From a virus, in IMG/VR virus record IMGVR_UViG_3300025153_000204, positions 1 to 47,549 of that record: a stretch of DNA of 47,549 nucleotides; one strand, written 5' to 3'. Below are positions 13,101 to 47,549 of the stretch, in pieces. The position numbers and the translations under genes are program-made. Positions within the stretch are counted from its first letter, which is position 1, and every line of letters starts with the position of its first letter. Below the pieces are notes generated by a model, which made no database searches, was not told the origin of the DNA, and saw nothing but the letters and a program-made list of their open reading frames with translations.

Positions 13101-15194
13101 CTATTTATATTTTTCTGTTAGTTCGTTTTTGATTGATATTTGTTTCTCTAGTCGTTTATCAGACATTGTGAACCTATTCCACGCAAAAACGAAAATTAAC
13201 CAAAGTCCTATTAGTGGAGAAAACATTAATGCAGTCAACGTGTTTTTTTGAACTGTATTCGCAATTGTATCAATCCACATAATCAATTGATATGAATAAT
13301 TATACGGTGAAGTTTTACAGTAAAATTGCAATAAGGTAAAAAGAATTATCAAAACACCAAGCCCCATAAGCCAGTAGGCTGGGCGTTGCCACTTTCTTAA
13401 TTCTTCTTTTTGTTCTTTTTCAATGAGTTTGGCTTTTAATCGCAAGTTTTCATTCTCTGTTTCAGTTAATTTTTTACCTATTCCGCTTTTTGCGTTTTTT
13501 AGTTGTTGAATTTCTGACGACACAGTTTCTTTATGAGCCTCAATATCAGTTGAAAGTTTCTCCTGTTTTGCACATAATGCCACATTTTGATTTTTTAATG
13601 TTTCAACTTCACTTTCAAGTTTCGTTTTCGCATAAGTTTTAGCGTTTTCAAAAATCTGGTTATTCGATAAGCCTCTTGAAATAACACCGTAAAATTTGTT
13701 TTCAACTAAGTTATTCAGTATATTGCGTTGTTGCTCAAGATTTGAGGTCATTTCGCCGATACCACACAAAACTACATGAAGCCTTTCGCTATTTATTAAA
13801 ATTTCATTGTTTTTCAGATTTAAAAAGCTGACAAAGCTTTTAAAATCGTCATCGGTACGGTTTAAATATCGAAGTAAAATACTCATCCATTGGCTTGGCA
13901 ATAGCACAATTGGAGTCTTATTGGCTCTTTGATAATCCCAACGCCTAAGACCTTGGTCAGTTGAGATAAAAAAATACTTAGTATCGAAAATGTTTTGATC
14001 TTTATTCTCCCGTTTTCTTTCAATCCAGTGAATGTTCTCGGCATCAATGGTTGCGCTACCAATAATTTCATTGCCTTCTCTCGACTTAAAGGTAGTAATG
14101 CTAGAAATATAGTCTCTTAACAGCTCATCCGTTGTTTTTTCTTTACTATCAAAAGGAACTTTTGTATCAATGTCGATTTTAAATTCTCTTTTGAAATTAT
14201 CATAAACACTAAAAACATTGGCAACAAACAGATCAATACTAGTATTGGCTTTGCCAATACGCCACTTGTGATAAAAGTTGTAAATATCTCGTTGAACTTC
14301 AACTTCTTGAAAAAGTCGGGAATTTACTCTTGGAGAATCATACTTTCTAATCCTGTCGGCATGCGATTTAATACCTGCTTTAAATTCGTTATCTGTCGAT
14401 TTTGAAATGATAATTTTCTCGCCAGAATCGCTGAACTTTTTTAGGAATGTTTGAGAACGGTTTTGCCTATTTTCTCCATTGATGCCCAATGCCCTATAAA
14501 TGATATTTGTATCAAGATAGAAATTCTTGTTCTTCAAATTATCCAAATGAATTGAAGAACCTCCGTTTTTGTTAGTAAGCATACAATATTCAAGAGCATA
14601 ACTCGCAATATCAAATATCGCCTTGTTTTTATAGGAGTTATCCCATTGCAGAAAGTTATTTATAACCTCCTTTTCTTTTTCGGAATAGTTTGTCGATTCA
14701 AGATTGATAAGCCCAGAAAGGTCTTTTTTATTGTCGATTAGTTTTTGGAAACTTGATGTATTGGTGCTGAAAATCTCGTAAAGAAAACGATAAATAATTG
14801 CTTTTGAATCAACTTTTGCAACCAATTGAGCAAATTCCTTTTGAAATGCAGTGATAAAGAAATCAATGGTTTTGTTGCTTATTTTTGACTGAAGTGTTTG
14901 CTTCCGTTTTTCTGAAAGACAAACAAATATATCCCCATTTCGCTGATTAGTTAAAAACCCCTCTTCTTTTTTGCTTGTGACAATTTTTTTTACAGCTTCT
15001 TCTTCAAAGGTTATGCTGTATCTTTCCTGTATAAAATCAATTATTTGATGAACCGAATATTCAATAACACCGCATTCAAGTAAAACCGACTCTATTATTT
15101 TCTTGTGAATAGTTTTTGGAGCAACTTCATAGTTGTTGTCAGCATACAACACTGCTGCTAAACGGAATAATTTATTTTGGGCATCTTGGTTCAT
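13101..15194 (-). CDS. PIN-like nuclease with coiled coil and two membrane helices
   Basis: A protein of 697 residues. Residues 1-100 look like winged-helix segments. A PIN-like nuclease region runs from about 222 to 432: NFYLDTNIIYRALG with D228, E270 in DNEF, D385 in IDAENIHW and D413 in STDQGLR, matching the spaced acidic residues of PIN nucleases. Residues about 515-600 are a charged coiled coil, followed by two membrane helices at about 607-626 and 653-675 and a short basic tail. It would be anchored in the membrane with the nuclease in the cytoplasm. It stands alone, between the ligase module and the terminase. A stand-alone RNase-type defence or abortive-infection effector is my inference. 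Confidence 0.6.
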   Translation of the reverse strand: MNQDAQNKLFRLAAVLYADNNYEVAPKTIHKKIIESVLLECGVIEYSVHQIIDFIQERYSITFEEEAVKKIVTSKKEEGFLTNQRNGDIFVCLSEKRKQTLQSKISNKTIDFFITAFQKEFAQLVAKVDSKAIIYRFLYEIFSTNTSSFQKLIDNKKDLSGLINLESTNYSEKEKEVINNFLQWDNSYKNKAIFDIASYALEYCMLTNKNGGSSIHLDNLKNKNFYLDTNIIYRALGINGENRQNRSQTFLKKFSDSGEKIIISKSTDNEFKAGIKSHADRIRKYDSPRVNSRLFQEVEVQRDIYNFYHKWRIGKANTSIDLFVANVFSVYDNFKREFKIDIDTKVPFDSKEKTTDELLRDYISSITTFKSREGNEIIGSATIDAENIHWIERKRENKDQNIFDTKYFFISTDQGLRRWDYQRANKTPIVLLPSQWMSILLRYLNRTDDDFKSFVSFLNLKNNEILINSERLHVVLCGIGEMTSNLEQQRNILNNLVENKFYGVISRGLSNNQIFENAKTYAKTKLESEVETLKNQNVALCAKQEKLSTDIEAHKETVSSEIQQLKNAKSGIGKKLTETENENLRLKAKLIEKEQKEELRKWQRPAYWLMGLGVLIILFTLLQFYCKTSPYNYSYQLIMWIDTIANTVQKNTLTALMFSPLIGLWLIFVFAWNRFTMSDKRLEKQISIKNELTEKYK

Positions 15195-25830: not shown

Positions 25831-26280
25831 TTATTGATTCAACCACATAAAATCCTTTGTGCTTTTATACTCAAACCCAAGCACATTACCTTTTTGTGTA
25901 TTGAGTATAACTGAAGCAAACAACCTTAGTTTGCGATTTTTTCCGCCGCAAATAATAGCGCTCCCGCTCTCAAAAGTCAGTTTCAGTGCAATCGACCGGC
26001 CACAAAAGCGATTCAGCTCAGCGGTCATGTCAGCTGAACCTCCTGGAATTTTCATTTCGTATTTGCTTTCGATTAGCCTTCCGGAAGGAGGCATACTTTC
26101 CTGGGTAGTCAATAGGGCACTTCCAGGCGTAAAATAAACAGGATGCCACACTTTACCGGAAACGAGCGTAACCGATATTTTATTTGAACCAATCCGCATC
26201 TCCGAATCAATATCGCCCGGAAACACATACTCACACCCAACAATAGGATCGTTGGGATGTTGCTTTTCATTAATAATCAT
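25831..26280 (-). CDS. Hypothetical phage-type structural protein (149 aa)
   Basis: A strand-rich product starting MIINEKQHPNDPIVGCEYVF, with segments GSNKISVTLVSGKVWHP and GKNRKLRLFASVILNTQKG. The beta-rich pattern, absence of a signal peptide and position at the head of the leftward phage gene run suggest a small head-tail or virion protein. I recognise no named family. A hairpin with 9-bp arms lies 9 bases upstream of its start. Confidence 0.5.
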   Translation of the reverse strand: MIINEKQHPNDPIVGCEYVFPGDIDSEMRIGSNKISVTLVSGKVWHPVYFTPGSALLTTQESMPPSGRLIESKYEMKIPGGSADMTAELNRFCGRSIALKLTFESGSAIICGGKNRKLRLFASVILNTQKGNVLGFEYKSTKDFMWLNQ

Positions 26281-26288
26281 GAATTAAA

Positions 26289-26320
26289 GGTTTTAGATAT
26301 TACTAAAAATGTCTAAAACC
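26289..26320 (-). promoter_or_regulatory. Perfect 9-bp inverted repeat at the phage/defence boundary
   Basis: GGTTTTAGA and TCTAAAACC enclose 14 bases. It lies between the stop of the TatD-like gene and the start of the 149-residue phage-type gene, followed on the - strand by CTTTAATT. It could be a weak terminator for the defence operon, an operator, or part of an attachment site. Not resolvable here. Confidence 0.4.
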
Positions 26321-26422
26321 CCACTGGCGGTAGGAATGTTCAAAGATAAGAATTCATGATAGAAGAAGAAATTTTTGAAGACAAATAATGAGCAGAATTG
26401 CATTCCCCCCGGATTATCCAAA

Positions 26423-27130
26423 CTAAACTATTTTTGAGACCAATCCTTTAAAATTTTTATCAATCAACTCTTCTACTTCTATTTCAGAGACTTCCCACAG
26501 AATAGAAATATGATTGTAAATCAATGAGATATTACTTTGCCCAATAAATGGAAAATCTGTTTCTGTTAACATCAATTCTTTGGGAATCTTTTTAATAATT
26601 TCTCGCCCATGTTCAGATTCAAGCATTGCTGAATTGATTGAAAAAAAGAAGCCTGAATCTATTATCCGTTTTAAAACACTAAGAGAACCAGAATACCAAT
26701 GAAAAATAGCATTTTCAATCTTCTTTTCTAGCAACATTTCTAAAGTTTCCTTTTCTGCTCTTCTGGAATGTAAACTCAAAATCTTTCGTTGCCCTTTAAT
26801 GCAGTTAAGTACATAGTCAAAACTTTCAATCTGAGTTTTTTTTGTGGAAAATCCTTCTCGTGAGAAGTCTAAGCCAACTTCTCCAATGTATGACGTTTGA
26901 TTAAGATACTCAGCAAATTTCGAATATTCTTTAGGATGTTCACTCGCTTTTAAAGGATGTAGCCCTAAGGCAAGCCTAATATGTCTGAAATTTTTCAAGT
27001 GATTTGCACCCATCTGGAAATGACTTGGCAGGTTTGTCATTCCGATTGTTACTATTTTCTTTTTCTCATTATCTGAGATATATTTTTCTGGATTTTGTGC
27101 CATATCAAAATGGCAATGAACATCTATCAT
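26423..27130 (-). CDS. qatD: QatD: TatD-family DNase
   Basis: 235 residues. The metal-dependent hydrolase motifs of TatD are visible: DVHCHFD at the N-terminus (H5, H7), YIGEVGLDFS near 82-91, SLHSRRAEKE near 117-127, FHWYSGS near 141-147 and the final TETDFPF near 190. TatD proteins are 3'-5' DNases. The start overlaps the QatC stop by 4 bases (ATGA), and the order matches the published QatABCD anti-phage system of Gao and co-workers (2020). It is the last gene of that operon. Role inferred from the family: DNA processing in the Qat response. Confidence 0.9.
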   Translation of the reverse strand: MIDVHCHFDMAQNPEKYISDNEKKKIVTIGMTNLPSHFQMGANHLKNFRHIRLALGLHPLKASEHPKEYSKFAEYLNQTSYIGEVGLDFSREGFSTKKTQIESFDYVLNCIKGQRKILSLHSRRAEKETLEMLLEKKIENAIFHWYSGSLSVLKRIIDSGFFFSINSAMLESEHGREIIKKIPKELMLTETDFPFIGQSNISLIYNHISILWEVSEIEVEELIDKNFKGLVSKIV

Positions 27131-28497
27131 TTTATTCCTAAGATATTTTTAATTTCAACACTTCCTTTTTCTTGAATCCATTTATTGATTTCAATCCGAG
27201 TTCTTTTCACAACATGTGCGTACTCACTAACTTTTTCTAATGGTAAAGTTCCATTTACCAAGAGGTTTTTTTCAATATCCTCAATTGTTAATGGTTTTTT
27301 CATATAATCAATAAAAGCCGGAATATCTGGTAATTTTTCCAAAGGATATTTTATTGGATTAAAAAGATTCGTTCCTATAATTTCCTTATCTAGTCCAATC
27401 TTATGTAAGGCAACTCTGCGGTAAATACACGGCATACATATTCCACAATGATTTGTACCTTCCTCAATATCTCTTATATCTTTTCGAGTTCCCCTTTTTC
27501 CACAAGAACATGAGCTGCTATACGTTGCTAATATAAAATTTCTATCTCTACATTCTTCTACCATTTCACCTTTTGTTTTCATTTCATAATCATTCTTTAT
27601 AGGATGATTCAAACCTAATTTGGAAATAAAACTTTCAACTTTTTTCAGATAATATGGATGAGCTGTCCTTGTACTACAACTACTCCGTCTTGAAGGTGTC
27701 AACGGATGATTTAATGAAATTGTTCCATTTTCCGGAATTAAAATCTCCATTCCATCTCTGATTGAATGAGTCACAAAAATTGCTTGACAAAGAAACAGAA
27801 AAGACCTACTTCTAAGGGTTGTTTCTTTATTTACGGAATTCCCATTTATATCAAGTTTAGATAAGTCTACTCTTGTTTGTATTATATGATATTGATTCTT
27901 ATATTTTGGAAGTAATTTTACATTAAGCTTGTCCTGGTCTGATTTAGGTCCTTTAAAAATAGAATCATAGTGTGAAACAAGAGCTAATCTATCGTTTGAT
28001 TTTGACAACTGGTCAATTACTCCAATTAAAGAATCTAAACCTCCAGAGAAAAGACTTACTTTTTTAAATGCATTACGAAATTCATCTTTATAAACTTTTC
28101 CCTTTGTTTTGAGTAAATATAGAATTGATTTTTCTCTTTTTACGAATGAGATGCTCCAGTTGTCCCCTGTTAGAAATGAAAGTAATTGTTCCAAATCAAT
28201 TTTACCAGCATTGAAAATCTCAGGAGATTCAACCGGAAATACAACCTCGATATCACGAGACCAATGATTAATTGAAAAATCTTTTCTTGGCAATAAAATA
28301 TCTATGCCATAAACATAACAACCTAATAAAAAAACATCGAATGCCACTCCACTTTTTTGTTTAGTGAACTTATATAAGTTTTCGTATTCAATATTCAATG
28401 GAACGGATATCTCATTACCTTTTGAATCCTCAAATCCTAGTTTGATTCGAGAAAATTCACCTTTATGCGCGTTAGGAATATCAATATTAATTTTCAT
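27127..28497 (-). CDS. qatC: QatC: QueC-like ATP-dependent enzyme
   Basis: I take ATG at 28497 as start: it gives MKINIDIPNA and an 11-base overlap with QatB, while the longer frame from 28527 overlaps by 41 bases. The product has 456 residues. The PP-loop SLFSGGLDSL (SGGLDS at 151-156) marks an adenylating enzyme of the QueC family. A cysteine cluster CSCGKRG...HCGICMPC near 338-370 fits the QueC zinc site. An N-terminal region of about 140 residues, unlike cellular QueC (about 230 residues), is specific to defence versions. QueC makes a 7-deazaguanine precursor; what QatC modifies is not settled. An ATGA overlap connects it to QatD. Confidence 0.9.
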   Translation of the reverse strand: MKINIDIPNAHKGEFSRIKLGFEDSKGNEISVPLNIEYENLYKFTKQKSGVAFDVFLLGCYVYGIDILLPRKDFSINHWSRDIEVVFPVESPEIFNAGKIDLEQLLSFLTGDNWSISFVKREKSILYLLKTKGKVYKDEFRNAFKKVSLFSGGLDSLIGVIDQLSKSNDRLALVSHYDSIFKGPKSDQDKLNVKLLPKYKNQYHIIQTRVDLSKLDINGNSVNKETTLRSRSFLFLCQAIFVTHSIRDGMEILIPENGTISLNHPLTPSRRSSCSTRTAHPYYLKKVESFISKLGLNHPIKNDYEMKTKGEMVEECRDRNFILATYSSSCSCGKRGTRKDIRDIEEGTNHCGICMPCIYRRVALHKIGLDKEIIGTNLFNPIKYPLEKLPDIPAFIDYMKKPLTIEDIEKNLLVNGTLPLEKVSEYAHVVKRTRIEINKWIQEKGSVEIKNILGIK

Positions 28498-29227
28498 GAT
28501 TTTCGAATGCTTTAAGTGTGTCTTCAAAAATATTCTTAACTAAACTATCTCCTTCTTTTCCTGGCCAATCAATTTTACTTAAGTCTCTCTTTAGTGCTAT
28601 ATTCTTTAATTTTTCAACTAGAAAATTTTTTAGTTGAGTATAAAAATTAGCAGTAGCCTGTCCTCCTTTCTCTTCTATCAATTTTTCATAAAAATCGATA
28701 GACAAATGCTCATAAATATAGTAGGCATAATACTTTATTAAGAGTTCTTCAGTTCCATATTCGTTAATCTTTGCTTCAAAATTCTTTTCTAAATCTTGAA
28801 ATGTCTTTGCATCACTACCTATTTCTTCCAGTAATTGTCTTTCAGCTTCTTTTGCTGCAGTTTCATCTAATGTAGATGCAACGCCGGAACAATATTCGAG
28901 TAAGTAATTTATTGCATCACTTGCTTTTGTGTTATCGGAAAATTCAAAGCCAATATTGGATAATGCAGGCCTAAGACCCTGTGACCTTACATTATTTAAA
29001 AATCCGCCTAATTTTCTTGCAGTTTTTAATCCTGCCTTTCCTGCAATTCCAGATCTTCCTCTTCCTCCATAACTTGAACCTCCTAGTAATGCTGTAAAAT
29101 TGGATGTTATGTTATTGAAATTAGTAGAAGATATTTTTCCGGTGTCACAAGCATGAGTGACGCTGCTACTTAACTTTGACCAGTTTGGGTTGCCATTAAT
29201 CCCACCATAAGACTTTGAAGTTCCCAT
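28487..29227 (-). CDS. qatB: QatB
   Basis: 246 residues starting MGTSKSYGGINGNPNW, the Gly/Ser-rich opening I associate with QatB proteins. Then a Gly-rich stretch (LLGGSSYGGRGRSGIAGK) and a long helical C-terminal half (about 85-246) with Tyr-rich helices and acidic ends. No catalytic motif and no membrane segment. The start codon overlaps the QatA stop by one base (TAATG). QatB is a required component of the Qat system, and its molecular role is unknown to me. Confidence 0.85.
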   Translation of the reverse strand: MGTSKSYGGINGNPNWSKLSSSVTHACDTGKISSTNFNNITSNFTALLGGSSYGGRGRSGIAGKAGLKTARKLGGFLNNVRSQGLRPALSNIGFEFSDNTKASDAINYLLEYCSGVASTLDETAAKEAERQLLEEIGSDAKTFQDLEKNFEAKINEYGTEELLIKYYAYYIYEHLSIDFYEKLIEEKGGQATANFYTQLKNFLVEKLKNIALKRDLSKIDWPGKEGDSLVKNIFEDTLKAFENHEN

Positions 29228-31065
29228 TATAATTTACGTTTTTGTGTCTTTTCTAGGAATTGGTTAAATTCAATATGTTTTACATTGAACCTTTTCATAG
29301 ATTCAGTTACTGCTGGTGGAATTTTCTTTCCAACGCTTAATAACGTTTCAACATAGATTGATTTACAATCTATACCTTCTTCCAATGAGCAATTAAATAT
29401 GTCATAATATCTCTGTTTTTCAGGTTCTGTGATAATTCGCTGTTTAAGTAAATTGTAAAATGCTATTTGATCATTATTACTAAGTGCTTTTAAATCTTCA
29501 TTTAAGAATTTTTTAGTAAGTTTAATCGGCATTCCATCTGGTTCGAGTTTTAACATTAAAGATTTAACTATAGGTGGTACCAATAGATTGCTTTGCATAG
29601 ATGATAGCTTATCTCTTGAAATCCAATAATAATCTCTTAAGTCAACTTTAGAAAGGTGAGGCTTAACACTTAGCCAATTTATTATTTTGGCTTTATTCCA
29701 TCCCTTTAATTCATCTGGAAAATTCAAGTTTTTATTTCCTTTAGTGCAGCATATTTCTTCCAATATACCCAATTCAGTTGCAAGACCTTTATTGGATATT
29801 TGCCAATTATACAACGTTTCAAAAAGTTTTGGTTCCGCATATTCAAGAATCATCAGCTTTGCTAAGAAGTCATCTTTGAAATCTTTGATATTTGCTATGG
29901 CTGCCAATTTCTTCCTTAGCATAAATGTATTTAAAAAGCGCTTAATCTGTCGTGGATTACCATATAGGCTTTCCGAAATAATTGGCGACAGTTTGGCAAT
30001 TAAGGAAACATTTTGTTCTAATTTAGCAGCTTTGTCAGCACCTACTGCTTGTTTGACTTTTGTAAAATCAAAAACAGAATATCTATCTTTTTCTCGAAAT
30101 TTTTTAAATGCTTCAAGTACCGTTATAAAATCAGATGAGTCGTCTAAGTCATTCTCACAGAAAAGCAAAGTTATATATGTTTCTACTTCATAATCAGATA
30201 ATTTTGGTAAATTATAGGGTATTTGGATTAGTTTTTCAAGATAGTCATTCACAATTCTATCATTAGTGTTTTCGGCACTACCATCAATAATTTTATTCTT
30301 GTATCTATATTCTATGGCGTGCCTAACGATACGAGGGTCTGCACCAATGACAAAGGCAGTATTTTTCACATTTAAAAATAATTTGATTGCTTCTAGATTA
30401 TCAATAATTCTGTCTGGCAAGCATCTGTCAAGGTCATCAATAATAATCACAAGTTTTTTTATTTTGGACTTTTCCAGTAATTTTTCGAAGTCATCTCGAA
30501 ACTTACGAACTAAATCAAACTTATTTGAATCATCAGTATCAGTTATGAATTGTTTAAGAAAATTTTCAGTATCATGTCCTTGCAATTGAGCTACCAAATC
30601 TTTTGGATTTTTTACGGCATCCTTTAACCCATTTACTATTTGAGGAATAGCACTTAATCCGCTTGACATAAGAGCAGCTGTTGCAGGTAAAGCAATATTT
30701 TTCATGCTAAACCCAATAACCCGCATCCAATTAACCGACTTGAATAACTTTTTTATATCTTCTTTTAATCCCTCTCCAAATTTTTTCTCATCCTCAAATG
30801 CTTTTATAATTGTTTCGAGCAATGCCGCCTTTGCGTCATCGTATCCTTCAAATACCCATCCATTAAAAAAAAGGCATGCTGTATTATCCTCTTTTTCAAA
30901 TTCACTTTTGAGTACTTCTAAAATACTTGATTTGCCACTTCCCCAGTCTCCAAATAGTCCAATTGTAAGAGGCAGCATTTTATCATCGTTGATGAGTTCC
31001 TTTATTAAGTTTGCATGTACATCAAATCCTAAAAAATCTTTATCGGTTATGTTGTCTGTCCACAT
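29227..31065 (-). CDS. qatA: QatA: KAP-family P-loop NTPase
   Basis: 612 residues. Walker A is GDWGSGKSS (39-47) and Walker B is LVIIIDDLDRC (205-215), the KAP signature with the DDLDRC motif. A hydrophobic insertion (about 115-145, FSMKNIALPATAALMSSG) between the two resembles the membrane-associated insertion of KAP NTPases. The C-terminal 300 residues are helical. It is the first gene of the QatABCD operon, and likely the sensor or energy module. The A/T-rich leader region upstream also holds a small 44-residue frame. Confidence 0.9.
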   Translation of the reverse strand: MWTDNITDKDFLGFDVHANLIKELINDDKMLPLTIGLFGDWGSGKSSILEVLKSEFEKEDNTACLFFNGWVFEGYDDAKAALLETIIKAFEDEKKFGEGLKEDIKKLFKSVNWMRVIGFSMKNIALPATAALMSSGLSAIPQIVNGLKDAVKNPKDLVAQLQGHDTENFLKQFITDTDDSNKFDLVRKFRDDFEKLLEKSKIKKLVIIIDDLDRCLPDRIIDNLEAIKLFLNVKNTAFVIGADPRIVRHAIEYRYKNKIIDGSAENTNDRIVNDYLEKLIQIPYNLPKLSDYEVETYITLLFCENDLDDSSDFITVLEAFKKFREKDRYSVFDFTKVKQAVGADKAAKLEQNVSLIAKLSPIISESLYGNPRQIKRFLNTFMLRKKLAAIANIKDFKDDFLAKLMILEYAEPKLFETLYNWQISNKGLATELGILEEICCTKGNKNLNFPDELKGWNKAKIINWLSVKPHLSKVDLRDYYWISRDKLSSMQSNLLVPPIVKSLMLKLEPDGMPIKLTKKFLNEDLKALSNNDQIAFYNLLKQRIITEPEKQRYYDIFNCSLEEGIDCKSIYVETLLSVGKKIPPAVTESMKRFNVKHIEFNQFLEKTQKRKL

Positions 31066-31102
31066 TTTTTTTGTTTTTACATTTTTTTAATACGATATAA
31101 TT

Positions 31103-31237
31103 TCAGTGCATTTGTTTCATTAACCTCATAAGCAACTTATGTTGTTTTATGATTAGCTTGTTAAGCTTGTTATACTCTGTGATGATGTAATTGCCATTTT
31201 TATTATTTAAGTGCCTGTCGATTGAAATAATCTTCAT
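31103..31237 (-). CDS. Small basic protein (44 aa) coupled to the 111-residue gene
   Basis: The frame starts at ATG 31237, whose last bases form the TGA stop of the upstream 111-residue gene (ATGA overlap). It ends at TGA 31103-31105, 37 bases before qatA. The product is basic and helical, opening MKIISIDRHLNNK and ending LMKQMH. A perfect tandem 9-base repeat (AGCTTGTTA x2, 31155-31172) encodes YNKLNKL. The stop-start coupling argues for real translation. No family recognised. It is too short for most gene callers. Confidence 0.5.
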   Translation of the reverse strand: MKIISIDRHLNNKNGNYIITEYNKLNKLIIKQHKLLMRLMKQMH

Positions 31238-31569
31238 TTTTCTAATAAGCTGAATATATCATAGTGAATTTGTCTAATTGCATTATCCAAATCTTTTTTG
31301 TACTCATGTTGTCTTACTTTTGCAGCATTTTTTTTAATACTCATTTTGTAAGAGTAATCTGCATAATAAACTTCTTTGCCTAAAGTATGGTATAAAGCGG
31401 AATGAATCATTGAATAATGCTCACCATCATCTATTTCATTCAATTGATTAATTAGGTCAAGAATCTGCTTTACCAAATATTCCAAGCTATAAGGTTTTTG
31501 ATGTAAAGATTGCATATTACTTATTTCGTTATACAACTCATTGATTTTCCTTAAGTATTCTTCTTTCAT
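31234..31569 (-). CDS. Small helical protein between BREX and Qat (111 aa)
   Basis: A helical product opening MKEEYLRKINELYNEISNMQ. It is moderately basic at the C-terminal half (MSIKKNAAKVRQHEYKKDL) and ends in a hydrophobic helix FSLLEK. No signal peptide or membrane helix. It lies 127 bases downstream of brxL and 168 bases upstream of qatA, coupled by ATGA to a 44-residue frame. The pair could be an accessory regulator or an antitoxin-toxin-like unit; nothing in the sequence fixes this. Confidence 0.6.
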   Translation of the reverse strand: MKEEYLRKINELYNEISNMQSLHQKPYSLEYLVKQILDLINQLNEIDDGEHYSMIHSALYHTLGKEVYYADYSYKMSIKKNAAKVRQHEYKKDLDNAIRQIHYDIFSLLEK

Positions 31570-31695
31570 TGTAACTTTGTTTTTGAATATTTTAAATATT
31601 TTTGAGTTTATTTCGTCTATCTATGAGTGTATCTGTAGAATTCGATTGCCTGAATTTATTTTCCCCTTATGCTCCATAATAACTATATTTTAAAT

Positions 31696-33741
31696 TCAAT
31701 CCAGTAACGCCTTAATCAAGCAATCTTTCAAATCAGTGTAATACTGAATATTGATCTTCGTGATCATATCATCTGATAATTCATTCAATTGCTTCCTTGC
31801 ATTTAAAGGAATAAGTATGGTAGTTGCTCCTTTTTCAACCGATAGTTCAGCAAGATTTACAGCATTGTACACTATATCAAGCGAGCCACCCAGATTGAGT
31901 TGACCAACAATGACCAGACCGCCTTTTGTCCCTTTTTCGAGGATAGCACTGCACAGTGCAATTAATACGGCCATTCCCATACCATTGCCACTTTTGGATG
32001 CATCGAATACGCGTAACTGAACCGTAAATTCGCGTGAACGAGGATCTCTGTCGCCAACTAACTCCTTTGTTTTGCTGTATAAATTTTGTTCTGCATACTT
32101 TACGCATTCCTGGAATTGCGGTGGTGCTGGCTTATTTAATATTTTGACTCCGGAACCCGGACCAATATTAACTTCTATTTTGTATAAACCGGTAGCTTCT
32201 TCTTGTCCGCCAGCATTTAGTGCCCATATTTGGCCAGGAGGAAGCGGATCTTCTCCAATTGTATTTTCGCTATGGATTTCAGGAGTTGTCACAAATGTCT
32301 CAACACCATTTTCTCCAATACGGTAGCTAAAATGGGTATTCCGAAACTCTGCTGAACCAATTCGTTTCTGTTGTTCTTTTACCCTTCTTCTGTATTCCAA
32401 TGAAACCTTTATTGCCCATTCCAATAATTCATCGGAAATCGGTACTTCCGGATTAGGTTGCATTAATTTCAACAAACCATTGAGGGTTTTATTGACTGCC
32501 GATGTGTCGCGGCCACTTAGAGCGCCACCATAATCAATACGTGATGAAACGGATGTAATTCTGCTGATATCACGTAATCTTGTCCAACATTCAGCAAGGA
32601 AATCACTTACTAAACCAAAATGATTTGTGAAGAATACCTTGTTTAGTTTTGGAAAATCCCAGCCTGGCACAAAAGCATGAATACGGTCCATAAAAGCCGT
32701 ATCATCCCTCATTTCCTGTGGAAGCGGACCAAATAGGTGTCCTATTCTTTGTTGATGCTCGACATCGACTTCAAAATTCCCCACCATAACGATGCCACCA
32801 TCTGCACGGATAGGTTCCTTGCCGCGACTGAATTCCCCACTTTCCATGTAACCTTTCATGATGTTCACGCCATCTTTCTGATCAAACGAAACACCTGAAA
32901 CTTCGTCAAAGCAGACCACATCATACTTACAAACGAGTCCTCGTTCTCCGCTTCCCATATTAACAAACATCTTTGCAACAGTGGCTTTACCACCGGAAAC
33001 CAAATGCGAATAAGGTGAAATCTGTTGATATAGATGCGATTTTCCGGTACCTCTCGGTCCCAGTTCTATCATATTGTAGTTGCGTTCCAGGAATGGGATC
33101 ATCCGGACAAAAAGCACATTCCTGGCTTTTTCCGTTAATTCGGCTGGCTCCATTCCAACACTGCGGATTAAGAACTCTTTCCATTCTTCCAATGTAAAAA
33201 ACTCCCGCCCTTTATATAGAATATCTAGCACATTTCTTTGTGACAATTGAATAGGGCGAATATTTGCCACACCAAACGGACGTCCACCATTTTCCTGGGC
33301 GATAGCTGCATCATATACCAATTCAATCTCGGCATAAAACCCTCCTGTCAGCATCCGGTCGTTGGCATTAACAGCCTCGGCAGAAATACGAACCTTGTTC
33401 AATTGTAAACTTGGTAAAGTTGCCACGTAACTATCAGTAACCGTGTCCAGTTTGGCCGTGATGATATCAATAATTTTAATTGATCCTTTTTCCCTGGCTT
33501 TCGATTTGAAATATTCTTCCTCTCCAGGTCGAACTGTTCTATCCTGGAGTTGCCTTTTCACAATCTCCAAACCTTCCTGAATTTCTCCTTCATCCGTGGT
33601 TGCACAATACCGACCTAAAAGAAATTCGATGACATAGGTGGGTATAGGGTATGTTTTGCGGAATTGTTCCAGCAAATCTTTGCGTACAACAAATCCTTCA
33701 AATGCCTTGGTTCCTAATTGGTCAATTTTATCTAATTCCAT
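31696..33741 (-). CDS. brxL: BrxL: AAA+/Lon-related BREX protein
   Basis: 681 residues, the usual length. Walker A is GPRGTGKSH (228-236) and Walker B VVCFDE (275-280). The C-terminal domain has the Lon-like fold (SKSGNGMGMAVLIALCSAIL, then LNLGGSLDIVYNAVNLAELS). The serine of the Lon DGPSAG box aligns with glycine in SGNGMG, and no lysine is seen at the usual place, so proteolysis is doubtful. BrxL has been described as a ring-forming, MCM-like DNA-binding motor. It is the last BREX gene, 11 bases after pglZ. Confidence 0.92.
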   Translation of the reverse strand: MELDKIDQLGTKAFEGFVVRKDLLEQFRKTYPIPTYVIEFLLGRYCATTDEGEIQEGLEIVKRQLQDRTVRPGEEEYFKSKAREKGSIKIIDIITAKLDTVTDSYVATLPSLQLNKVRISAEAVNANDRMLTGGFYAEIELVYDAAIAQENGGRPFGVANIRPIQLSQRNVLDILYKGREFFTLEEWKEFLIRSVGMEPAELTEKARNVLFVRMIPFLERNYNMIELGPRGTGKSHLYQQISPYSHLVSGGKATVAKMFVNMGSGERGLVCKYDVVCFDEVSGVSFDQKDGVNIMKGYMESGEFSRGKEPIRADGGIVMVGNFEVDVEHQQRIGHLFGPLPQEMRDDTAFMDRIHAFVPGWDFPKLNKVFFTNHFGLVSDFLAECWTRLRDISRITSVSSRIDYGGALSGRDTSAVNKTLNGLLKLMQPNPEVPISDELLEWAIKVSLEYRRRVKEQQKRIGSAEFRNTHFSYRIGENGVETFVTTPEIHSENTIGEDPLPPGQIWALNAGGQEEATGLYKIEVNIGPGSGVKILNKPAPPQFQECVKYAEQNLYSKTKELVGDRDPRSREFTVQLRVFDASKSGNGMGMAVLIALCSAILEKGTKGGLVIVGQLNLGGSLDIVYNAVNLAELSVEKGATTILIPLNARKQLNELSDDMITKINIQYYTDLKDCLIKALLD

Positions 33742-36071: not shown

Positions 36072-37718
36072 TTACTTTAATAGTTTTTTCCCTTTTTCGG
36101 TTAGTCGGTATTTTTGCAGTCGGCTATTAGGTTTATCAGGCAAGGTCATCTCAATAATATCATATTCCAATAGTGGTTTAATATAGTAATTAAAGTGTTT
36201 AGAGTGGTTGATAAGCCCCAAATGGGCTAAAATATCAATTCTTGATTTCTCTTCGATTAGAAAATCGATTATCTCTAATGACTTAGACACCGACTTAGAC
36301 ACCGACTTAGACACCGACTTAGTTACTATTTGATCTCTGACGATGTCTCTGACATCACTGAGATCGTTGTCCAAAAGCATGCTTAATAGTTGAAAATCAA
36401 ATTTTTCGGCCATTAAAACATCAACATCTGCAGGGGTTAATTTATTTCCTGACTTAGTTACTAACTTAGTTACTAACCAATCAGCATGGCAAGGCAAAGT
36501 GACCAAAAACAATATACTTTCTTCGTCGGTATAAAAGATCGGTGCCGGATTACCATTTTTCGTCATTTCGTCACGAATTACAGGAATACCTGTGGCTTTT
36601 CCCTCTGTGAGGTTTAATTCCTTCAAAAAATCACCAATTCTCCGGTTCCGATAATCCCTTGCAATTACTCTTCGTTGTTGTAAATCGGCATTTTTGATTG
36701 GGGGCAAAGGACCAGGATAACTTAAGATTTCGATCCGGTCAGGAAGCACCTGTATTTCAATGGGTTTTTCATCAGCATAACTTTTATGATAAACCGCATT
36801 GCAGATTGCTTCTTCCAAAGCATTGTAAGGATAATTGCTGATGTTCAAACTTTCTGCCTGACCGGTAATTTTCCTGGTCTCGGTTTTTAGTACTTTGTCT
36901 TTCAAGTAGGCCAGACAATTACGTATTTGCTTGTGCAAAGGACCTTTAAAAGTTTCTGAAATATAATTCCGACCTGCTTCGTCCTTATGAATGGCCAATT
37001 CAATCCATGCCCGATTAAAAAAACGGTGCGGGTTACTATTGAAAAACAAGAGCCCTGCGTTTACAGGCCTTAGGAATTCAACCGGGCCACGGGCAATTTG
37101 CATCGCTTTGCACAAATCGGCAAAGGGCATCGAGGTACTTTCTTCGAATAAATCGCTCCCAACTTCCTGCAAGAACTCACGAATCAAGCCCAGCTCCAGG
37201 TTGTTAAGCTTAGCTTCCTGATTGATACGGTCATCGAAAGGTATTTTTGCAGTCAACTCAATCAAGTGTGTTTGATTATCTCCTTGTGCTACAATACTCC
37301 GGCTACCCGACCTGATATAATATTGCCTCCTTGCATCATTTCCAAGGGTCGATGGGCAAGAATAGGGACGCATATCGCCGGCTGGACACCAAACAACTAA
37401 AATATGCTTACCGTCAATTTCATACGGTTGTGTAATGGGAAGATAATTGGGTTGAATTTTATAGCATATGCCAATTAATTCACCTTGTATCCGGTCTAAA
37501 CTATCCAATAGCAATCCTTTCAATGGAAATTGAGGAATCCCTTCGATTGCATTGATGCCAATGATGATATAACCACCTCCCCAATTATTGATATCATTGG
37601 CAAATGCGCACACTGAATGCAAAACGTCTTCAGGGTTCCAGCCTTCCTTAAATTCAAGTCGTTCCCATTCAACTACTTTGCCGTGTACTAATTCTAATAT
37701 GTTTACTGGTAGTGCCAT
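36072..37718 (-). CDS. Schlafen/AlbA_2-type ATP-binding regulator inside the BREX operon
   Basis: 548 residues. The N-terminal AlbA_2 domain opens VVEWERLEFKEGWNPEDV and continues CAFANDINNWGGGYIIIGI (about 15-55). A middle region LEEAICNAVYHKSYADEKPI near 285-305 and GDFLKELNLTEGKATGIPVI near 355-375 fit the HATPase_c_4 domain of COG2865-type regulators. C-terminal segments resemble winged helices. Two low-complexity stretches, VTKLVTKS (about 414-422) and KSVSKSVSKSVSKS (about 465-479), link the domains; the latter comes from 12-base tandem repeats. The gene lies between pglX (152-base gap) and pglZ (3-base gap), not a core BREX position. A role in regulating BREX or a linked effector is inferred. 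Confidence 0.8.
   Translation of the reverse strand: MALPVNILELVHGKVVEWERLEFKEGWNPEDVLHSVCAFANDINNWGGGYIIIGINAIEGIPQFPLKGLLLDSLDRIQGELIGICYKIQPNYLPITQPYEIDGKHILVVWCPAGDMRPYSCPSTLGNDARRQYYIRSGSRSIVAQGDNQTHLIELTAKIPFDDRINQEAKLNNLELGLIREFLQEVGSDLFEESTSMPFADLCKAMQIARGPVEFLRPVNAGLLFFNSNPHRFFNRAWIELAIHKDEAGRNYISETFKGPLHKQIRNCLAYLKDKVLKTETRKITGQAESLNISNYPYNALEEAICNAVYHKSYADEKPIEIQVLPDRIEILSYPGPLPPIKNADLQQRRVIARDYRNRRIGDFLKELNLTEGKATGIPVIRDEMTKNGNPAPIFYTDEESILFLVTLPCHADWLVTKLVTKSGNKLTPADVDVLMAEKFDFQLLSMLLDNDLSDVRDIVRDQIVTKSVSKSVSKSVSKSLEIIDFLIEEKSRIDILAHLGLINHSKHFNYYIKPLLEYDIIEMTLPDKPNSRLQKYRLTEKGKKLLK
36280..36322 (-). repeat. 12-base tandem repeat array within the AlbA_2-type gene
   Basis: GACTTAGACACC occurs three times in a row plus seven more bases, giving the in-frame KSVS repeat. 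Two copies of a related 12-base unit (ACTTAGTTACTA) lie at 36452-36475. Unit length is a multiple of three, so copy-number change alters linker length, not frame. Confidence 0.9.
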
Positions 37719-45850: not shown

Positions 45851-45920
45851 AGTTTAAAATCAATCAAAAATTATTATCATAAAAACTTACTCATTTTCAC
45901 AGCTTGCAAGTTACAAAATC

Positions 45921-45942
45921 ACAATAAACAATTCATTATTGT
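45921..45942. promoter_or_regulatory. Dyad upstream of brxA
   Basis: ACAATAA and TTATTGT form a 7-base inverted repeat with an 8-base spacer, 71-92 bases before the brxA start, in a 234-base A/T-rich gap (45851-46084) with no gene. It is a candidate operator for BREX control. No clear -33/-7 promoter pair was found. Confidence 0.35.
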
Positions 45943-46084
45943 TAAAAATGTTTTTTCACTGAGATTTCAACAAAATAAAGGGTGGAACATGTTGAAAAGA
46001 TATTTTTGATCAATTAAGAGCTTTTAATATTGAAAAGATGAAAGGTTGAAAAATGGTTTAGATTTGTAAAAAATATTTTTGTGA

Positions 46085-47077
46085 TTAAATATTTGATTTA
46101 CATTCCTTTATTGAAGTCGTCATTTCAGTAATGATGTTTTTCGTTTCTTTGAAGTATATGTAATGAAGATGAATGCTGTCATTTTCAATTTTAATCTCCT
46201 TATCAGCAAAAGTGGTATCACATTTATCAGGCAAAGAAGGCATTACACACGCGACATATAAATTGATATGCTTTGGTGGAAGGCTCACATGATAACCAAA
46301 TAATTTCCACCAATCTTCACCACTTTTGCTACGTAAAAGTTTTAAAACAAAGGTTGCATATGCCAATCCTTGAAGTATTGCTTTAGAGGGAGGTTCTTTG
46401 GAAACATTTTCATCTTTTACTTCCATAATACAAAGTCTTCTCCTACCTCCTCTACTAACACGAGCTAAAATATCAATGCCGCCACCTTTTATTACATATT
46501 CCAGGCTATCAATTTTACTGGCGCTTAAAGGAGTAGGCATTTGAAACCGAGCAATGTTTGCAAGCAACACCGGTTGAACATTGCATAAACTTTTAATTTG
46601 ACTTTTCGATTTTGAAAATTCAGTTAAAAGGAGACTTTCTATTCTGTGCTCATTATTCATACCTAAAGTGTCATCTCTTTTAGGATTTGCCTTGAAATAT
46701 TTTCTAAATTCTTTTGATTTCTCCGACCTCCATGCATTGTCCTTCAGCTGAATTTTACATCCAAAATACGTCTCATTATTTTTGTCACATCGTAAAGTTG
46801 AAATTGCAACATTATCTCCCTTAATTTTAAGATCGGCGACATCCTGACCAAGATAACGCAAGGAATAGACCATGCTCCCTTTAGCTTCTTTTACATTCAT
46901 GTATAGATATAGAGGCATCCATTTATGAAATTTCTTTTTATTCTTTATGATTGTGTCAAGGTTCAAATGAATTTTTTTTGCATAATCTTCAAATCTTGAA
47001 ATCCACTCATTATTATCATGTAACTTCTCTTGAACTTTCAAAATTGTATACCTACATTCTTCATCAAAATCGCGCAT
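46085..47077 (-). CDS. PD-(D/E)XK nuclease-like protein
   Basis: A longer frame starts at TTG 47092, but ATG at 47077 is preferred because a GGGAGG ribosome-binding site lies 7 bases before it. The product has 330 residues. The nuclease signature is seen in order: NEHRIESLL near 142-150 (helix glutamate), GGGIDIL with D202, CIMEVKDEN with E219 and K221, and AILQGLAYA with Q236. The N-terminal 130 residues carry no known motif. The stop of the upstream metallo-beta-lactamase gene lies 2 bases before the start, so the two are translated together. A nuclease in a defence island suggests a DNA-cleaving effector. Gene family not recognised. Confidence 0.65.
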   Translation of the reverse strand: MRDFDEECRYTILKVQEKLHDNNEWISRFEDYAKKIHLNLDTIIKNKKKFHKWMPLYLYMNVKEAKGSMVYSLRYLGQDVADLKIKGDNVAISTLRCDKNNETYFGCKIQLKDNAWRSEKSKEFRKYFKANPKRDDTLGMNNEHRIESLLLTEFSKSKSQIKSLCNVQPVLLANIARFQMPTPLSASKIDSLEYVIKGGGIDILARVSRGGRRRLCIMEVKDENVSKEPPSKAILQGLAYATFVLKLLRSKSGEDWWKLFGYHVSLPPKHINLYVACVMPSLPDKCDTTFADKEIKIENDSIHLHYIYFKETKNIITEMTTSIKECKSNI

Positions 47078-47079
47078 AG

Positions 47080-47549
47080 TTAAACCTCCCAATATTCGCC
47101 ATCGGCGTTTAATTCAACATTATTAAATAGTTCACTGTATTTCTCCGGCATAAAAGTATGGATAGGAACGATTCTGGAAGGAGCCAGAGCATCTGCAAAC
47201 CGTTTTAAATCCGAAGGGCTTGCATGACCGGATGTATGTATGCTTTGCTTAGGAATTTTATGCTTGGCCAGCCATTCCCTTAAATAAGCATTTGAATCCT
47301 GTTCCCAATAACCTTCCCATTGTGAATAAATATATACCGCATCATTGAGCAAATCTGCCTTTTCAAGATCTCGTATATGAATTGGGCGAAAAAGAAGAAC
47401 GCTCTGATCTGAAATTGCCTGCAGGTTTTCAATAAAGATACGATTCTTGGAATGGCTTTTTAAAAGATCAATCCAATTGTTGCTTTTTATTTGAATTCGT
47501 TGTTTATGAGGAATAAATAGGGCAATATTTGGCCAGCCAGACTGCGGAA
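47080..47549 (-). CDS. Beta-CASP metallo-beta-lactamase family protein, 3' part (gene cut by window edge)
   Basis: The frame stays open to the right end of the window, so only the last 156 residues or so are seen; the N-terminal HxHxDH site lies outside. The C-terminal motifs are those of the beta-CASP/RNase J group: IHTSGHASPSDLKRF (the SGHA box), then SRIVPIHTFMPEKY (the PIHT box). RNase J-like enzymes are metal-dependent nucleases acting on RNA or DNA. It is directly followed by the PD-(D/E)XK gene, so the pair may be a two-nuclease unit. A housekeeping RNase J is less likely because of this coupling and the defence neighbourhood. Confidence 0.7.
   Translation of the reverse strand, partial: PQSGWPNIALFIPHKQRIQIKSNNWIDLLKSHSKNRIFIENLQAISDQSVLLFRPIHIRDLEKADLLNDAVYIYSQWEGYWEQDSNAYLREWLAKHKIPKQSIHTSGHASPSDLKRFADALAPSRIVPIHTFMPEKYSELFNNVELNADGEYWEV

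Follow-up and report, generated by a model that had tools for sequence, protein, structure and literature searches.

Several described systems resemble the gene pair considered here. Cas14 of type VII CRISPR employs a beta-CASP nuclease of the metallo-beta-lactamase (MBL) fold as an RNA-cutting immune effector (PMC10910872), AVAST, Hachiman, Lamassu and Canu combine an MBL-fold nuclease with a second enzyme in repeatedly acquired nuclease-protease pairs (PMC12799240), and Shedu SduA and other stand-alone defence nucleases have the D...ExK core of the PD-(D/E)XK fold. RNase J and EF2904 represent the related beta-CASP hydrolases. The pair itself lies at one end of the IMG/VR virus record IMGVR_UViG_3300025153_000204, which was analyzed over its whole length of 47,549 nucleotides (the window), and consists of a beta-CASP type MBL gene, present as a C-terminal fragment of 155 residues (47080..47547), and, 2 bases further on, a 330-codon open reading frame (ORF) for a predicted PD-(D/E)XK nuclease (46085..47077), both on the minus strand. 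In a sample of 32 loci with MBLs of this subfamily, namely the window, plasmids, genomes of one phylum and IMG/VR phage contigs, we found that the MBL is paired with such a nuclease far beyond chance, and we consider that the two genes act as a single functional module and serve in immunity, at a probability of about two in three.

Despite these likenesses, the locus departs from each of the systems above. The N-terminal profile match of the subfamily MBLs to Cas14 (NF045584) is weak, at 22-39 bits vs. a cut-off of 800, they are teamed with a PD-(D/E)XK-type protein, and Cas5 or Cas7 genes were not recurrent among their neighbors, so that CRISPR type VII was rejected. The MBLs of AVAST, Hachiman, Lamassu and Canu are DNases akin to those of DNA-uptake pathways and are coupled to a protease, whereas the MBL here is of the beta-CASP type and its partner nuclease-like; neither neighbor clustering nor flanking-gene matches gave a recurrent trypsin-like or caspase-like protease across the loci, and a protease-activated MBL was rejected as well. 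Unlike SduA, the window nuclease has no PADLOC or Pfam match and is accompanied by an MBL gene, although one partner elsewhere has a sub-threshold SduA_C match. With the RNase J and EF2904-type enzymes the subfamily shares motifs I-IV and A-C, a histidine in motif C and weak matches to TIGR00649 and to an RNase J1 profile, but its MBL part measures only ~410-440 amino acids (aa), it has a regular nuclease partner, it forms a clade apart from two outgroup MBLs, and TIGR00649 gives 35-90 bits for the full-length relatives and 15 bits for the window fragment, compared to a cut-off of 400. The sequence-only reading had assigned the pair to no named system, and this agrees with the literature searched (subscription papers and preprints lay mostly outside it), where no description of the pair was found, and with PADLOC (2023 version), where the partner family is absent; a recent naming is possible.

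MBL homologs were identified in 14 out of 395 genomes of the one phylum, as well as on plasmids and IMG/VR contigs. Among the first 29 loci, 20 had an adjacent ORF on the same strand with a D...ExK motif, and in three the MBL itself was extended at its C terminus by a segment with the motif. Reading of the remaining loci gave one adjacent partner cut by the contig start (L029), a fusion broken by a transposase gene (L033) and one MBL at a contig end that was not assessable (L036), while two non-redundant viral loci had a convergent partner of family C (L061) and, behind a WYL-like regulator, an adjacent protein whose motif is the variant D...ExE (L060). The grand total of 32 loci thus comprises 23 adjacent pairs, one adjacent variant, four C-terminal fusions (L032, L034, L038 and the interrupted L033), one locus not assessable and three unpaired MBLs. 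In 28 of the 31 assessable loci, the MBL thus stands beside a PD-(D/E)XK-type protein or forms a fusion with one. As a control, the motif was present in 3 of 147 other ORFs of 200-460 aa in the same loci (leaving out an orphan nuclease, G386), vs. a motif-bearing neighbor in 23 of 31 and four fusions, and chance adjacency was rejected. Since the motif had been written from the partner proteins themselves, neighbors within 6 kb were also clustered by motif-free, all-against-all BLAST. This gave the same answer, with partner families at the head of the list (nine, five and four loci); the clustering also recovered WYL regulators (five loci), a ~135-aa protein (five) and site-specific recombinases (four). 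Either gene may come first, as is seen inside each of the partner families A, B and C, and the two mostly overlap by 3-27 nucleotides or are separated by short gaps. The transposase gene in L033 (7205-10149), REP-type in appearance, interrupts the nuclease domain of the fusion gene, and the convergent genes of L061 (6917-9283; near-copy L062), the sole opposite-strand case, are found among large phage tail-type genes.

Most of the partners were connected by BLAST, with weak links between families. Pairwise profile comparisons, which are single comparisons and not database searches, gave E-values of 5e-5 (A-C), 9e-4 (A-B), 1e-8 (C-D) and 5e-8 (B and the L047 partner), mostly around the motif. 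Sub-threshold Pfam and NCBIfam matches of three partners were mostly to PD-(D/E)XK families, namely HSDR_N_2 and PDDEXK_9 (L028), DUF234, SduA_C and NucS (L046), and NucS_C and HSDR_N (L029). On the MBL side, 30 subfamily members, including the window, were split from the two outgroup MBLs with 96% support (Shimodaira-Hasegawa-like approximate likelihood ratio test, SH-aLRT), in a tree with flagged long branches and in which the window row covers only 36% of the columns. The Thermus and E. coli plasmid MBLs were outgroup-like; in Thermus, the gene that follows the MBL had no Pfam match. A single clade of the MBLs with family-A partners was rejected by the approximately unbiased (AU) test (p 6.6e-11), as was a clade of the window, L002 and L055 (p 3e-4), and yet the nucleases of the window and L002 are 53-55% identical. 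Partners have therefore been exchanged while the pairing was kept. Taken with the flipped gene orders and the fusions, this exchange indicates that the pairing is maintained, which is a signature of functional requirement, and the PD-(D/E)XK subunit appears to be the faster-evolving and more variable half.

The 330-aa window protein, a member of our partner family A, matched no family in NCBIfam or PHROGs either, its gene had no match in the plasmid, phage and E. coli collections, and viral scans with the protein as sole query found nothing; the homolog collection was opened via the MBL and one relative from a metagenome-assembled genome (MAG), not via the 330-aa protein in viral and plasmid sets. 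That relative, recovered by genome scan on a deltaproteobacterial MAG contig, is 54-55% identical and is immediately preceded by an MBL gene, the same arrangement as in the window. Phylum- and order-level searches added four more, of which G225 and G420 are followed at once by an MBL gene that overlaps the nuclease gene, and G456 has the MBL directly upstream, the fourth being the orphan G386. According to the sequence-only reading, homologs rarely found beside MBL genes would have spoken against a joint system; instead, five of the six family-A members, counting the window, adjoin an MBL, in both gene orders. The core motif IDIL...CIMEVK (46415..46474) contains D202, E219 and K221, which are invariant in family A and also among partners of other families, and the predicted helix-strand-strand-helix order fits a PD-(D/E)XK core, at low confidence. 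A profile search of PDB with the nuclease family gave chance matches only. Judging from the motifs, the profile links and the sub-threshold matches, the protein probably has a PD-(D/E)XK fold.

The MBL fragment scores higher than the curated cut-off of Pfam RMMBL (E 2.7e-5) and resembles the MBL protein EF2904 (2az4; E 1.8e-5), while its closest relative is the MBL part of the L034 fusion protein (47% identity). The RMMBL segment, together with the histidines of motif B (HTSGHA, 47224..47226) and motif C (PIHT, 47158..47160), both invariant in 32 of 32 aligned MBLs, places the window copy in the beta-CASP superfamily. Motifs I-IV (D, HxHxDH, H, D) are intact in 31 of 31 full-length relatives and outgroups, the corresponding segment of the window gene being situated beyond the end of the record, and the residues of motifs A, B and C are likewise invariant across all full-length MBLs. 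Histidine in motif C correlates with RNA substrates, and valine with DNA nucleases such as SNM1 and Artemis (PMC4770246, PMC7458816). A rather unlikely alternative, which is compatible with immunity and amounts to a variant of the module proposed here, is restriction-like DNA degradation, in which the PD-(D/E)XK enzyme cuts DNA and the MBL acts as exonuclease on the same molecule. Some RNase J- and CPSF73-type ribonucleases do degrade single-stranded DNA (PMC4770246), and AVAST, Hachiman and Canu have a DNase as their MBL (PMC12799240), but every member of this subfamily has the motif C histidine rather than the valine of SNM1 and Artemis, and no methyltransferase was consistently linked to the pairs in neighbor clustering. 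Restriction-modification as such was rejected, as a methyltransferase was not recurrent among the neighbors.

An immune role for the module is suggested by its genomic company. Among the flanking genes, WYL regulators were most frequent (7 of 97), followed by matches to MADS and IetA-type models, GmrSD, type IIG enzymes and integrases, and restriction-modification genes also occur. Pairs are carried by conjugative or mobilisable plasmids, and are also found among phage structural and packaging genes. Such neighbors are typical of defence genes. It is unlikely, and more so than the degradation variant, that the pair is a true two-nuclease module devoted instead to nucleic-acid repair or turnover in mobile elements, e.g. 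the processing of DNA ends or RNA in plasmid or phage replication. Beta-CASP enzymes do act in RNA decay and DNA end processing (PMC10910872), phages and plasmids are among the carriers, and a PD-(D/E)XK/UvrD-helicase gene pair adjoins L003; against this stand the sporadic distribution (the 14 of 395 genomes), neighbors of the WYL, restriction-modification, GmrSD and BREX/Qat kinds, the rapid divergence of the partner, and the position of the pair on phages, where it sits as cargo amid structural genes. Other neighbors were shared between a few loci. A protein of ~125-190 aa recurs near the MBL in L003, L004, L005, L006 and L039, and is possibly an accessory. A small protein of 68 aa is common to the MBL surroundings of L004 (R. 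phaseoli) and L043 (Prevotella), and a metallophosphoesterase gene follows both the unpaired Prevotella MBL (L043) and the paired Cereibacter MBL (L041). In L012 and L054, a tandem AAA protein, a WYL regulator and a conserved 178-237 aa protein adjoin the pair, the AAA protein of L054 having IetA/TRIP13-like PADLOC matches.

For the immune module, we envisage that the beta-CASP MBL nuclease works with the PD-(D/E)XK nuclease, whether the two come from adjacent genes or are joined in a single chain, and that the two proteins would form a complex. The variable PD-(D/E)XK subunit may recognize or cut invading DNA, whereupon the MBL subunit, of the motif C histidine type, could degrade RNA or single-stranded nucleic acid as the effector. 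The outcome would be anti-phage or anti-plasmid immunity, possibly through stopping the infected cell, and the WYL regulators near several loci would control the module. This particular division of labor between the subunits is less likely than not. There is slightly less than an even chance that the pair represents a widespread, previously unnamed immune system built from just two nucleases that differ in fold, in which an RNase-type beta-CASP MBL is combined with a swapped, sometimes fused PD-(D/E)XK protein and the recognition of nucleic acid by one licenses the other. Several observations weigh against the immune module. The MBLs of L005, L039 and L043 have no partner, and the family-A nuclease G386 (L056 15635-16606), although 90% identical to the paired G456 nuclease, has no MBL on the sequence read; this orphan adjoins a DNA methylase-like gene. 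AlphaFold models of the 330-aa protein reached a pLDDT (predicted local distance difference test) of 38 with two sequences and 44 with six, and Foldseek searches with them gave no significant PDB match; several of the top matches were PD-(D/E)XK nucleases (McrC, FokI, Shedu and HamA, with McrC best in one search at E 0.059), which, none being significant, were not used as proof. No sensor domain was recognizable, the suggested RNA preference of the MBL depends on a single motif C residue, the defence-type neighbors were counted without a matched control set, and the survey was confined to one phylum, plasmids and IMG/VR.

In the window, the gene coordinates, strand, 2-base gap and ribosome-binding site of the sequence-only reading were borne out, the site being GGGAGG (47085..47090), 7 nucleotides ahead of the nuclease ATG at 47077 and within the last MBL codons. 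The 5' part of the MBL gene is absent because the IMG/VR record ends at 47549. Protein matches also recovered the predicted BREX (bacteriophage exclusion) set, which starts 234 bases downstream of the pair and comprises BrxA, BrxB, BrxC, PglX, PglZ and BrxL, followed by qatABCD. The AT-rich gap between the pair and BrxA (45851..46084) had no terminator-like and no convincing promoter-like site, and a search for Bacteroidota-type promoter boxes upstream of BrxA gave a result at chance level. That the pair is a BREX accessory, as the shared strand, short distance and missing terminator could hint, is very improbable, since pairs occur in many loci without BREX, neighbor clustering of the other loci gave no recurrent BREX gene, the commonest flanking families are not BREX, and the words MBL and lactamase are absent from a 2026 BREX survey (PMC12839542). 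The self-contained defence unit of an RNase J-like and a PD-(D/E)XK enzyme that had been proposed for the window is supported by the recurrent BREX-independent pairing, while defence is read from context and the fold from sequence.

Other features of the window concern its defence cargo. The BREX locus, qatABCD and the pair (15331-47549) are found beside phage terminase and head-protease genes (PHROGs matches), with no tRNA detected in 15331-47549, and the record could represent a prophage or a phage-plasmid that carries a large load of defence genes, or else an island of a chromosome next to a prophage. The Qat genes (26000-32000) have a G+C content of 0.32-0.33, vs. ~0.41 on either side, which suggests a separate acquisition. 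Between PglX and PglZ, a 548-aa protein (36072-37718), outside the standard BREX core proteins, matches PADLOC models of the pAgo type (E 2e-22, profile positions 55-434). A 697-aa protein (13101-15194), without a PADLOC match, has hydrophobic segments at its C terminus and a DTN motif with which a PIN-type nuclease domain seems to begin.

Both enzyme folds are already known from immunity, while no record was found of a beta-CASP MBL coupled to a PD-(D/E)XK protein. The pair would give a likely role to genes annotated as 'MBL fold metallo-hydrolase' with 'hypothetical' neighbors in plasmids, and, as a compact, phage- and plasmid-borne and repeatedly re-paired module, it offers a testable case of two nucleases that may gate each other.
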